From the IMG/VR virus record IMGVR_UViG_3300042945_001923, positions 1-39,697 of that record: a stretch of 39,697 nt of DNA, one strand, 5' to 3'. A model generated the notes under the pieces. That model worked only from the letters and a program-made list of their open reading frames with translations. It searched no databases and was not told where the DNA came from. This DNA is from a virus. Position numbers and translations under genes: made by a program. Below, in pieces: positions 9,096-39,456 of the stretch. The stretch's first letter is position 1, and the number at the start of each line of letters is the position of its first letter.

Positions 9096-9234
9096 CGTCG
9101 AACTCCTCCCACCGGCGTCTCCGTTCTTGGAAGTCCCTCAAATCCCTCCGCATCGACTCGCGGCCGAGGTGGTAGGAGGCGAAGCACGAGCCGATGGATA
9201 GAATTGCCAGGCAGATAGCAAAAGATGCCGTCAT
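9085..9234 (-). CDS. Small membrane protein, 49 aa
   Basis: This frame is recovered from ATGA coupling at 9231-9234. Residues 3-22 are hydrophobic (SFAICLAILSIGSCFASY), giving one membrane segment. A charged cytoplasmic tail follows (RRDLRDFQERRRRWEEF). Another ORF in the same DNA (9092..9322) has no such features. It lies in the early operon; small membrane proteins here could interfere with host functions or superinfection, but no family is recognised. Confidence 0.6.
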   Translation of the reverse strand: MTASFAICLAILSIGSCFASYHLGRESMRRDLRDFQERRRRWEEFDDED

Positions 9235-9647
9235 AATTGTCCGGCCTCTTTCTGGATTGACGCTCCCGCTTCGGATTCCGTAGCCTTTGGCGCTTTATGG
9301 GAACCAATCTCGCAAGGATCACAGTCGGGGAGTTGAAAGCTTATCTCCAGGCTTGGCCGGATGACATGGAACTCACATTTGGAGGTCTTACCTTTCAGCG
9401 TTTCAAGCAACGCGGTCCGGAACTCCTCCAGATGGAGTTCAACCAAACGGTCTATCTCGACAGCGAAGGGGTAGTCCGGGTGGTTGATCATGATTCTCTG
9501 CCTCGGGAACTCCCCAGTTCTGGCAGTAATTAAGGCAGCCACCACATTTTGCCCGGTAGTTTGCGGGTAATAGGAGGCATCCATCCGGCCATCGATCATC
9601 TCGACCGCCCCACCGCTTGGGATTGCGATTCTCAGCGTGCGGCTCAT
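9231..9647 (-). CDS. Hypothetical early protein, 138 aa
   Basis: ATGA-coupled at both ends. The N-terminal part is beta-rich (SRTLRIAIPSGGAVEMIDGRMDA), followed by TGQNVVAALITARTGEFPRQ and a helix VELHLEEFRTALLETLKG. The C-terminal 30 residues are low-complexity and acidic. No catalytic motif is evident. It lies between small genes in the proximal early operon. Confidence 0.7.
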   Translation of the reverse strand: MSRTLRIAIPSGGAVEMIDGRMDASYYPQTTGQNVVAALITARTGEFPRQRIMINHPDYPFAVEIDRLVELHLEEFRTALLETLKGKTSKCEFHVIRPSLEISFQLPDCDPCEIGSHKAPKATESEAGASIQKEAGQL

Positions 9648-10014: not shown

Positions 10015-10166
10015 ATTTTGGTTGGTGTGATGTGGGTGGCTTGAAGCCGGTGCTTGATGAAAAACTTGGTGCGGGCATCGCCGAATCCGGCGGCCTCGAT
10101 GGTGTCGCGGATGGGTCCGGTCAGGCGGCAAAAGCCCTCGCAGAGAAAAAGGCGTGAGGGTTTCAT
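10011..10166 (-). CDS. Small hypothetical protein, 51 aa
   Basis: ATGA-coupled to the excisionase-like gene upstream and to the 38-aa membrane gene downstream. The sequence begins MKPSRLFLCEGFCRLTGP with two cysteines; a basic C-terminal part follows (ARTKFFIKHRLQ). No family is recognised. The reading frame is supported mainly by its perfect place in the chain of overlapping genes. Confidence 0.55.
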   Translation of the reverse strand: MKPSRLFLCEGFCRLTGPIRDTIEAAGFGDARTKFFIKHRLQATHITPTKI

Positions 10167-10336
10167 TCTTGGACCCCCTTCTCGACGGCCTCGTCGAGTT
10201 CGCTGACCTTCACCAAGATCGAGCCACCGAGTTTGTAAAATTTGATGATCCCCTGCCCTTTCAGTGCGTAGAGGGTCGGTTTAGAGATGCTGAGATATTC
10301 AGCGGCTTCTTTTGGCTTGAGGTAGGCAGGCTTCAT
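10163..10336 (-). CDS. Excisionase-like HTH_17 protein, 57 aa
   Basis: Coupled by ATGA to the RHH gene. The sequence AYLKPKEAAEYLSISKPTLY, followed by ALKGQG and IKFYKLGGSILVKVSELDE, is the classic MerR-like winged helix of HTH_17/excisionase proteins. It probably acts as Xis, directing the integrase to excise the prophage, and its place as second gene of the early operon suits induction. It could instead be a small transcription factor of the same fold. Confidence 0.8.
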   Translation of the reverse strand: MKPAYLKPKEAAEYLSISKPTLYALKGQGIIKFYKLGGSILVKVSELDEAVEKGVQE

Positions 10337-10497
10337 TTCGCCGCCTCCCGTTTTGCTTCCTTCTTTGCCTGCTGGCGGATGGCTTCAGCCACCAACCGGC
10401 TTATTGGCACTCCTCCGTTCGCATCGGCTTTTTTCTTCAGGTAGTCGAAGAGTTCAGCCGGGATGCTCACACTCGTTTTCATGTATGCGGTTTGCAT
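10333..10497 (-). CDS. Ribbon-helix-helix repressor-like protein, 54 aa
   Basis: KTSVSIPAELFDYLKKKADANGG, followed by PISRLVAEAIRQQ, is an RHH (Arc/CopG) fold: one DNA-reading strand followed by two helices; a basic tail ends the protein. The start is placed at ATG 10497, directly after the operator palindromes; ATG 10482 is also possible. The upstream extension to 10548 would translate the operators and is rejected. As first gene of the leftward early operon, with two palindromes at its start, it is likely autoregulated. Confidence 0.75.
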   Translation of the reverse strand: MQTAYMKTSVSIPAELFDYLKKKADANGGVPISRLVAEAIRQQAKKEAKREAAK

Positions 10498-10548
10498 GGT
10501 GCTACCGATATTATCGGTGCTACCGGTAGAGCAATAAAAATCTGTCAA
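10495..10548 (-). promoter_or_regulatory. Early leftward promoter with RHH operators
   Basis: On the minus strand a TTGACA (10543-10548) precedes CTACCGGTAG (10520-10529, a perfect palindrome). Then comes ACCGATA-t-TATCGGT (10504-10518, a 7-bp inverted repeat), ending 7 bases before the ATG at 10497. A GATAAT inside the second palindrome could be a -10, although its spacing to TTGACA is too long. The RHH half-site appears to be TACCGGT/ACCGATA. No Shine-Dalgarno is present. Confidence 0.55.
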
Positions 10549-10670
10549 TGGGGTGTTCTCCCCATACGAAGATTTTAGTTGACACCCGCATGAACACTAG
10601 GTTTGCGGGCGAAAATAAATTTTCGCTAAAAATTGAACACTGATGTTTCTGGTGCTACTGGTAGGAAGAA
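10549..10670. promoter_or_regulatory. Divergent control region
   Basis: The noncoding segment between the two RHH genes. It has a plus-strand TTGACA (10579-10584) without a good -10, a perfect 8-bp palindrome GCGAAAAT-aa-ATTTTCGC (10609-10626), and the direct repeat TGAACACT (about 10591 and 10634). CTACTGGTAG (10655-10664), one base off the leftward operator, overlaps the ribosome-binding region of the plus-strand gene. Confidence 0.55.
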
Positions 10671-10946
10671 ATGAAATCAAAAACCCATACCAAGTTAAAC
10701 ATCACCCTTCCTATTGAAGTTCACCAATGGTGCGTCAAAAAACAGGAAGAGGAACAACGGAAAACCAAGTTTGGAAAAGTAGCGCTATCGAAAATCATCG
10801 CGCAAGCCGTTCAGGACATGAAAACCATTGACGAATCTGGCCAGTTCCAAATGTCAGAAATCCGGCAAAACAATCCTGCGCACGATGCCCAACCCTCCTC
10901 TCCATCATTAAATCATCGCAAAATTAAAGGCAAATTTTCTTTATGA
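10671..10946 (+). CDS. Ribbon-helix-helix protein, plus strand, 91 aa
   Basis: The segment KLNITLPIEVHQWCVKKQEE, then FGKVALSKIIAQAVQDM, fits an RHH domain at residues 7-52. The C-terminal 40 residues are polar and probably disordered. AGGAAG precedes the ATG by four bases and overlaps a CTACTGGTAG operator. Transcribed away from the leftward early operon, next to the integrase, it is placed like a lysogeny repressor. Its DNA is AT-richer than most of the genome. Confidence 0.75.
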   Translation: MKSKTHTKLNITLPIEVHQWCVKKQEEEQRKTKFGKVALSKIIAQAVQDMKTIDESGQFQMSEIRQNNPAHDAQPSSPSLNHRKIKGKFSL

Positions 10947-10977: not shown

Positions 10978-11175
10978 ATGAAACAAACCCGCCGCTACTG
11001 CAAAGACTGCGAACAAAACCGACTTTTTGAGAAACAAACTCCCAACCACATACTGCATCTTATTCTCAGTATCGTAACGGCCGGGCTATGGTTGGTGCTG
11101 GTTTGGATTCCAATAATTATCCTGTCTCTATTCAGGCCATACCGATGCACGGAGTGCGGTAAAGGCTCGCTGTGA
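10978..11175 (+). CDS. Zinc-ribbon membrane protein, 65 aa
   Basis: CKDC near the N-terminus (residues 8-11) and CTEC near the C-terminus (57-60) flank a 25-residue hydrophobic stretch (ILHLILSIVTAGLWLVLVWI). The protein would be a membrane hairpin or single span whose ends meet to form one zinc ribbon. It follows the plus-strand RHH gene by 31 bases and ends 1 base before the convergent integrase stop. Expressed with the putative repressor in the prophage, it could be a lysogenic-conversion or superinfection-exclusion factor; this is inference from position only. Confidence 0.75.
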   Translation: MKQTRRYCKDCEQNRLFEKQTPNHILHLILSIVTAGLWLVLVWIPIIILSLFRPYRCTECGKGSL

Positions 11176-11176
11176 C

Positions 11177-12193
11177 CTAAAGTTCCCACCATTTCGCCGC
11201 GTCGCGCCTCGACACTTGATTGGCATAGGTCTCGTATAAGAGGCGCGGCGAGGTGCCCATGAGAAACGCCGTCGTCACCGTGTCCTTGAAGTGCGCGAGA
11301 TGGTAGCTTGCGAAAGAATGCCGGAGGCAGTTGGCAGGCCACTCCAGCGGCTCCTTGATGCCGATCACCTGGCAGGCTTCGCGGATGACCGGCTTCCACC
11401 GTTTCACCGAATACCCATCCACCAGCGCCTTGTCTGCGTCCCTGCGCGGCATGTGGCGCTTCAGCGGCTCGTAGATCGTGGCACTGCGAGGCCTTGCCGC
11501 CTCGCCCTGCTTCGCATCCTCATGGCGAATCACAATTTCATCATACTCCCAGTCGATCGCTGATGCCGGAATGGAAAAAATCTCTCGCGTGCGAAGGCCC
11601 GCAAAGGCACCCGCCACAAGCCACGCCTTGAACCACTCCGGCCACTCGTGGGCCAACAGCGCCTGCATTTGAGCCACCGTGAGAATTGGCAAGCGTGCGC
11701 CCTTGTCCTTCTTCGGCGGTGCATCGGAAAACGGATTATTTCCGACTCGCTCTTTCATCGCAGGCGACGAGAAAAAATCTCGGCAAACGGCGAAAACATT
11801 AAACCTTCCGCGCGTCGTCAGCGGTAGCTTGTCCACCCACCTGCGCATCGCCACCGCATCCAAATCCTCCGGGCGTTTGCGTCCATGAGCCTCCGAGAAT
11901 TTGAGAAGCCCCCACTTGAGTTGACGCAAAGTCACCGGCTCCACCTCAACCGACTTCTTAGCCAAGAACGCCGCAACAAAATGTGCCGCCGTCTCCCCTG
12001 CCTCCGCCTTCGATGGAATCGCCCCCGTATGCGCCAAAGAAAAAACCAACTCCGCATGCGCCTTGTTCGCGTCCGCCTGATCTCGAAAAAACATCCTGCG
12101 CCGTTTCCCCGAGTTCAGCGCCTTCGGCACATCGATCACCCACCTCGCCAGCTTGCGATCGAACCTCGGAATGAGCGCCTGTAAATTAGCCAT
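11177..12193 (-). CDS. int: Tyrosine recombinase integrase
   Basis: A 338-aa protein. The core-binding domain is at about 60-150. The catalytic domain has R201 (FAGLRTREI), K228 (HEDAKQGE), box II N288-C-L-R291-H-S and the nucleophile Y323 (LLYETYANQV). The usual His of HxxR is Asn, and the GH before the tyrosine is GT (MGTSPR). The rest of the pattern is intact, and N-x-L-R-H-S spellings occur in a known subgroup. It catalyses site-specific integration at the adjacent tRNA-Ser attP. The ATG lies at the edge of an ATGTCAAT palindrome. Confidence 0.93.
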   Translation of the reverse strand: MANLQALIPRFDRKLARWVIDVPKALNSGKRRRMFFRDQADANKAHAELVFSLAHTGAIPSKAEAGETAAHFVAAFLAKKSVEVEPVTLRQLKWGLLKFSEAHGRKRPEDLDAVAMRRWVDKLPLTTRGRFNVFAVCRDFFSSPAMKERVGNNPFSDAPPKKDKGARLPILTVAQMQALLAHEWPEWFKAWLVAGAFAGLRTREIFSIPASAIDWEYDEIVIRHEDAKQGEAARPRSATIYEPLKRHMPRRDADKALVDGYSVKRWKPVIREACQVIGIKEPLEWPANCLRHSFASYHLAHFKDTVTTAFLMGTSPRLLYETYANQVSRRDAAKWWEL

Positions 12194-38794: not shown

Positions 38795-39456
38795 ACATTT
38801 GCCCTCATAGTTTCGACAAGCCGGGAGCACCACTCCAACAAGGACCGCTCAACTTCCTTTTGAGGTTGGCCAACAACTCTCGGAGCCATTGCCTTGGGCA
38901 TGACATCAATTACTTGCCTAGCCGCTCCAAATGTTCGCTGAAACATAGCGATTGCGTCTTCAGTTAAAAGAGTGATTTGCATTAAACGCTCCCACTCGGC
39001 GTGATCCTTCTGAGCTTTAACTCGGTTGTTCCTAGCGGCAATGTAAACGCCATTAGCTTTTCTATAGTCTTCAATGCTGCCGTGGTTTAGTTCGATTTCT
39101 TTACGCTTCTGGTGCGCCGAATCCTCGGCTTCAATAGCTCGCTTCAACGAAAGGTCTGGAGTGTTTGCTGAATCGACAGGCTTGGTCTCAATTAACAAGA
39201 TAGGAGTGGTGGGATTACCTATTATCTGAGAATTTTGTTGAAATTCTCTGTTAGTAGGTTCGGCGACCTTTGAGAGTTTCGGCGCCGGTGGCGGTGTGCC
39301 GCGTTGCCCGCGCTTGGCGCGGGGCGGTGCGTTTGATTCGCGCCACGCCTGGGCGGCGTCCACGGAGGTCGTGGGCATGCCTTTCTTGACGAGGCGGGAG
39401 ACGACCGACTTGTCGATGCTTAACGCGTTGCTTAATTCCGTGATGCCCACGGACAA
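38770..39456 (-). CDS. terS: Terminase small subunit, Nu1-like
   Basis: A 228-aa protein whose N-terminal winged helix (ELSNALSIDKSVVSRLVKKG, then MPTTSVDAAQAW) is the DNA-recognition fold of Nu1. Helices at about 105-175 and a C-terminal tail (EWCSRLVETMRANV) should contact TerL. The start is TTG at 39456; GTG at 39450 is an alternative, and an in-frame TAG lies five codons upstream. Neither has a Shine-Dalgarno. The repeat-rich DNA just upstream is a candidate binding site. Confidence 0.85.
   Translation of the reverse strand: MSVGITELSNALSIDKSVVSRLVKKGMPTTSVDAAQAWRESNAPPRAKRGQRGTPPPAPKLSKVAEPTNREFQQNSQIIGNPTTPILLIETKPVDSANTPDLSLKRAIEAEDSAHQKRKEIELNHGSIEDYRKANGVYIAARNNRVKAQKDHAEWERLMQITLLTEDAIAMFQRTFGAARQVIDVMPKAMAPRVVGQPQKEVERSLLEWCSRLVETMRANVWPKVLQP

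Follow-up and report, generated by a model that had tools for sequence, protein, structure and literature searches.

The primary lysis–lysogeny (immunity) switch of this temperate phage is probably built from two divergent ribbon-helix-helix (RHH) proteins, here called P1 and P2, although DNA binding, repression, and lysogeny are inferred from sequence. Such pairs seem to serve a large group of bacterial viruses, probably of Verrucomicrobia, in place of the helix-turn-helix (HTH) repressor pair of textbook phages. We analyzed an IMG/VR virus record of 39,697 bases (the window, to which all coordinates refer). The reading of the region as a switch rests on the recurrence of the pair in all 57 related loci, the covariation of operators and proteins, the swapping and replacement of the pair between related phages, the neighboring int, xis, and attP, and the lack of another repressor candidate. 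These observations are support and not proof because there are no binding or lysogeny data. The genes and sites of the region are as follows:

10333..10497, minus strand: P1, predicted ORF for a 54-residue RHH protein, the proposed Cro-like partner
10671..10946, plus strand: P2, 91-residue RHH-like protein containing KLNITLPIEVH, the proposed lysogeny repressor
10160..10336, minus strand: xis, excisionase-like HTH_17 protein (Pfam HTH_17, 1e-12; PHROG excisionase, 5.4e-6), directly downstream of P1
10978..11175, plus strand: small zinc-ribbon/membrane ORF between P2 and int, co-oriented with P2 (PHROG matches of unknown function, ~3e-6)
11177..12193, minus strand: int, tyrosine integrase (PHROG integrase, 3.4e-17), convergent with P2
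12326..12350, minus strand: probable attP, tRNA-Ser 3' end GGTTCGAATCCCACCTCCTCCGCCA

P1 begins MQTAYMKTSVSIPAELF from an ATG at 10497, a start that is conserved in relatives. It matches the PHROG family "Arc-like repressor" (7.8e-6) and falls slightly under the gathering score of Pfam RHH_1 (0.0017). Its AF2 model (pLDDT 87) has helices at residues 14–26 and 32–53, and P1 meets the criterion for the RHH superfamily, an N-terminal β-strand followed by two helices. In Foldseek the model retrieved NikR and P22 Arc (1par) with weak E-values (0.08–0.12) and probabilities of 0.97–0.99; ParD was also among the fold matches, all of which had E-values above 0.05. For P2 the evidence is less direct: the window protein on its own gave no Pfam or PHROG match, and Foldseek with its model gave no useful match. 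The alignment of its family (A2) contains a (K/R)x(N/S/T)(I/V)(S/T)(L/M)P strand and then two helices, two homologues match RHH_1 weakly, and a low-confidence AF2 model (mean pLDDT 67) places helices at 15–31 and 39–56 after the KLNITLP strand. The assignment of P2 to the RHH fold is thus supported only through its family and this predicted model. The HTH domain that characterizes the CI/Cro family is absent from P1, which is RHH-like, and P2 has no HTH match. The original prediction of two facing RHH genes therefore holds, with P2 RHH-like by family and 173 bp from start codon to start codon.

The leftward (lytic/replication) operon opens with P1, and P2 faces away from it. The leftward gene had been predicted to lead into an excisionase-like gene and the replication genes, and it does: the HTH_17 match identifies the former, and past xis lie genes for RuvC, AAA_24, an exonuclease, an SSB-like protein, a methyltransferase, a replication initiator, and DnaB. 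A xis homologue also follows P1 in most relatives with a related int. The rightward gene had been placed beside int, which is near but separated from P2 by the ORF at 10978–11175, possibly an accessory gene expressed in the lysogen, as inferred from its orientation only. Within the leftward region, a plus-strand ORF at 9297–9533 (78 residues) matches PHROG 21180 (9.5e-17), and the overlapping minus-strand ORF at 9231–9647 may therefore be spurious. At the end of the replication operon, the protein encoded at 832–1362 has a weak HTH_3 match, is conserved in G133 (66%), and is possibly a late regulator.

With an integrase, an excisionase, and an attP, the phage meets the criterion for a temperate phage, although no integrated copy was seen. 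The catalytic residues of the integrase are invariant in its alignment (A3). In four Verrucomicrobiota genomes the tRNA-Ser 3' end is identical to the 25-mer beside int, and 15 of the 17 loci examined, the window among them, have such a tRNA end 147–166 bp from int. The genome matches lie on a phage contig in a bin and on a short MAG contig, and none was an integrated prophage flanked by host DNA. Relatives of the integrase in genome contigs are mostly from Verrucomicrobiota; because nearly all share only ~24–39% identity with it, Verrucomicrobiota (Verrucomicrobia) is the probable, not proven, host phylum. One 2.5-Mb bin, the Verrucomicrobia MAG nzgw610 (G001), holds twelve matches to this integrase family.

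Because P2 alone, used as a query in a pattern scan, returned no relatives, viral loci (L002–L032 and L113–L250) were gathered with P1 and int as queries, both singly and as alignments. We extracted 57 distinct P1 loci from IMG/VR, window included, and in every one a divergent RHH P2 lies 150–189 bp from P1; the gene pair that the original prediction had proposed to look for thus recurs throughout these relatives. P2 diverges fast (17–35% identical to the window P2 in A2), whereas loci can have identical P1 proteins. Two genome matches (G129 and G375) showed no such module at the P1-like match, and neither a recognizable P1 nor the −1 frame tail described below was found in any of 50,697 INPHARED phage records.

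The gap between P1 and P2 contains the following elements:

10498..10529, no strand assigned: O1, putative operator, direct repeats GGTGCTACCGATA (at 10498) and GGTGCTACCGGTA (at 10516), 18 bp apart
10651..10664, no strand assigned: O2, putative operator GGTGCTACTGGTAG, over the P2 ribosome-binding region, same repeat unit as O1
10548..10565, no strand assigned: palindrome ATGGGG-TGTTCT-CCCCAT, between the operators in the conserved core
10579..10626, plus strand: conserved promoter-like core TTGACAcCCGCATgAACACTAggTTTGCGGGCgAAAATaaATTTT
10504–10518: palindrome ACCGATA-t-TATCGGT
10520–10529: motif CTACCGGTAG
10609–10626: palindrome GCGAAAAT-aa-ATTTTCGC
10655–10664: motif CTACTGGTAG, an imperfect palindrome

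The repeat unit GGTGCTACYGRTA stands at 10498, 10516, and 10651 and so adjoins both start codons, O1 abutting that of P1; GGTGCTAC occurs three times in the 39.7-kb window, at these positions only. Of the 26-bp direct repeats in the gap, the best (10504–10529 against 10639–10664) matches at 20 of 26 positions, a value not reached by 100 dinucleotide shuffles (at most 18). The longest perfect palindrome arm in the gap is 8, with 300 shuffles reaching at most 7. The last four elements above are the motifs of the original prediction, all of which are present, but its proposal that the palindromes are the operators did not survive comparison: relatives do not keep the perfect palindromes but do keep the direct repeats, with their 18-bp spacing at P1, and we adopted the latter instead. 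Of its second, AT-rich palindrome, relatives keep merely an A/T tract within the promoter-like core.

The core between the operators, TGGGGTGWTCACCCC ... TTGAC..CCGCAT..GCGGGC-AAAAT-TTTT, is constant across operator groups. Its TTGAC is invariant in 57 of 57 loci and is also kept in several loci whose operators and RHH genes have been replaced. The ATGGGG-N6-CCCCAT palindrome (GGGGTGATCACCCC in many relatives) is found in most of the 57 intergenic regions, in any operator group. We infer that 10579–10626 is the probable promoter region of P2; no sigma-70 promoter was found in the P1–P2 gap, nor any clear −10 box, and to read TTG-N16-TAnnTTTG in the core as a promoter is no more than a guess. 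A search for LexA boxes gave two-mismatch matches and a single one-mismatch site at 38932, none in the switch region.

Sorted by the DNA-facing strand residues of P2, the loci fall into at least five groups, and from group to group the operator changes along with the β-strand residues that face the DNA in P1 and P2 alike:

Group I (includes the window operators): P1 KTSVS, P2 KLN, operator GGTGCTACCGRTA
Group II: P1 VKISVS, P2 KVN, operator GGTGCTACT
Group III: P1 VKTSVSMP, P2 KVS, operator TTACTACC..GGTAGCAA
Group IV: P1 ERTSVS, P2 R[IL]T, operator GATCATATC
Group V: P1 [ETM]KTSVS, P2 KFT, operator GGTCATAC..TTACTGGT

The O1 repeats are kept in the group I relatives, the other groups have repeats of their own, and the repeats abut both starts. 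When O1 and O2 were paired across groups, the true pairing scored best among the 120 permutations, though narrowly (10.14 against 9.83) and with five groups only. Within a locus, P1 and P2 are more alike than randomly paired P1 and P2 proteins (p = 5e-5, 15 families), as fits one shared operator. The region thus meets the criterion of a switch with two divergent regulators and shared operator units near both starts. Five or more operator types with matched protein pairs also form a ready-made data set for an RHH recognition code.

We propose the following mechanism. P1 and P2 would have the same DNA-binding specificity and diverge from a shared control region. P2, the proposed lysogeny repressor, would occupy the tandem repeats of O1 at the P1 start and silence the P1-xis-replication operon, while the Cro-like P1 would turn P2 off by binding O2, where the same unit lies over the ribosome-binding site of P2; whichever protein dominates would lock in its own state. 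Binding, the direction of repression, the identity of the lysogenic protein, the promoter positions, and the inducing signal are all inferred. In a variant of this scheme the roles are reversed, P1 being the lysogeny repressor and P2 a lytic antagonist or establishment factor. The sequence by itself is compatible with either protein dominating in a lysogen, and the tandem sites do adjoin P1. However, P1 heads the operon of xis and the replication genes, which is the position of Cro or Cox, and P2, like CI, faces away from the lytic genes; we consider the reversal unlikely and keep P2 as the proposed repressor.

Related phages differ in precisely this module. L010 and L011, the latter a group IV locus, are mostly 90–100% identical outside it and 41–59% identical across the P2 RHH domain, the intergenic region, and P1; L028 and L029 are 94–100% identical on the int side and 37–65% identical inside the module. 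In both comparisons the C-terminal tails of P2 and P1 are nearly unchanged and the RHH parts differ, and exchange therefore seems to occur within the genes. The module thus meets a further criterion of a CI/Cro-type switch, exchange of specificity as a cassette between related phages, and the alignments suggest that the RHH proteins and their matching operators seem to be exchanged together, as in lambdoid heteroimmunity. Whole pairs are replaced as well. L019, with an int 86% and a xis 98% identical, has an unrelated divergent RHH pair in the same slot, one protein of which passes the Pfam Arc family cut-off. G133:C38, a phage contig of 38.9 kb from a Verrucomicrobiota bin, whose MCP and portal are 92% and 87% identical to those of the window, keeps the core of the control region and has another RHH pair with new operator repeats, CGGTGCAC. 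There are exceptions to the divergent arrangement: L016 (6990–8750), L017, and L027 (1200–3000) carry two RHH-like genes in tandem. The same three loci have extra genes ahead of xis.

These exchanges bear on a second alternative, in which the RHH pair plays a secondary regulatory part, as immI does in P22, and the true repressor lies elsewhere or is encoded by the host. The precedent is real, P22 Arc and Mnt being RHH proteins of a secondary locus that controls an antirepressor (PMC2629481, PMC6550527), and the HTH_3 protein at 832–1362, weak as its match is, could be put forward as a separate repressor. That protein lies within the lytic operon, however, and no antirepressor or other repressor gene was recognized in the window; specifically, no Ant-like gene linked to the pair, the mark of immI, was recognized among the window proteins scanned. 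A separate HTH repressor, which would have refuted the original prediction, was sought among the window proteins, and apart from this weak match none was found. Moreover, the module adjoins int and xis and heads the replication operon, whereas the ant region of P22 lies among late genes, and allelic swapping is typical of primary immunity. We therefore regard a secondary locus as distinctly improbable and retain the primary switch.

Two further explanations draw on other known uses of the fold. P1 and P2 might be segregation or copy-control regulators of the ParG, omega, or CopG type, since such systems use small RHH proteins on direct repeats and a ParG-like phage RHH case is on record (PMC6669507); but the pair has no recognized ParA/ParM or plasmid replication gene as a neighbor, the presence of int, xis, and attP points to integration, and P1 leads xis and the replication genes, all of which leaves this explanation with very little weight. 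That the two proteins are antitoxin-like remnants of a toxin–antitoxin module has the least to recommend it: the fold is common in antitoxins, with weak CopG_antitoxin and CcdA matches and ParD among the fold matches, but no toxin partner was recognized beside the pair, and facing RHH genes with shared operators occur in 57 of 57 loci.

When read in the −1 frame, the 3' end of P2 in most relatives yields a conserved peptide of ~40 residues (CxC..REFRFWxLNSY..LPPGWIGQIHDLT) that mostly has no ATG, GTG, or TTG start in that frame; examples are the P2 genes of L025 (divergent from P1 at 7571), L138, and L022 and the loci L267–L346. An in-register slippery GGGAAA(A/C/T) precedes the tail; in L025 the codons there read GAG GGA AAA GCC. 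A profile of the tail found 173 stretches in IMG/VR. Upstream lie 113 distinct genes; on inspection, their 0 frame encodes RHH-like domains that belong to many unrelated types, and 92 of the 113 have a canonical in-register X_XXY_YYZ heptamer in their open windows (63 GGGAAAA, 17 GGGAAAC). By register, the slippery heptamers number 94 against 14 and 18. Substitutions in the −1 frame (0.367/0.269/0.476 per codon position over 96 tails) follow a coding pattern. The RNA that follows the slippery site gave no structural signal (mean z −0.17 across 65 genes), which leaves register and codon evidence as the only basis of the frameshift claim. Programmed −1 frameshifting of a phage repressor is thus a supported hypothesis that has not been demonstrated. 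Among 43 further loci with the tail outside the P1 family, ~36 have a divergent RHH partner as judged by eye, and in some none was visible by eye. The slippery site and tail are absent from the window P2, and the frameshift therefore does not bear directly on the window protein; the tail is also absent from L125–L131.

We lean, with modest confidence, toward a phage lineage, probably of Verrucomicrobiota, that uses RHH-pair switches and in which the repressor of most members comes in two forms through −1 programmed ribosomal frameshifting. One form would be the variable RHH domain alone and the other the RHH domain joined to the constant domain of ~40 residues, which could carry oligomerization or signal sensing while the DNA specificity is swapped. 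If confirmed, the tail would stand out as an unusual instance of a frameshifted phage repressor, and the idea of a repressor with one variable and one constant domain could then be tested directly.

HTH repressors are the usual mark by which the immunity region of a temperate phage is recognized; by that criterion, phages with an RHH pair would appear to have no repressor, and their immunity groups would be missed. No publication that we found describes a primary phage switch made of two RHH proteins, though most subscription journals were not covered. Other small phage and viral RHH proteins differ from P1 and P2 in arrangement. The 55-residue F55 of SSV1 maintains the carrier state by binding to a short site that is present in several copies in the early promoters and in that of F55 itself (PMC9608457); it acts as a single regulator, in a fusellovirus of archaea, is called unique to SSV1 (PMC9608457), and, unlike P1 and P2, is not part of a divergent pair with covarying operators. 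The small RHH protein of vB_BtS_B83, which is ParG-like and was assigned to segregation beside ParM (PMC6669507), is likewise not part of a divergent switch. P22 Arc/Mnt, which the original prediction offered as a partial precedent, fits as a pair of small phage RHH repressors close together with operators between the genes, and the likeness to Arc extends to the P1 fold match and to the L019 replacement protein above the Arc cut-off. It fails as a precedent for position, since P22 relies on C2 as its primary repressor and has the pair in a secondary locus (PMC2629481, PMC6550527), whereas the window pair adjoins int and xis, heads the replication operon, and has no other repressor beside it that we could find. 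In its logic the pair is closer to λ CI/Cro, with two divergent DNA-binding proteins, shared operators, and cassette exchange that yields new specificities, but CI and Cro are HTH proteins, whereas the window pair is RHH (P1) and RHH-like (P2) and lacks a CI-type cleavage domain.
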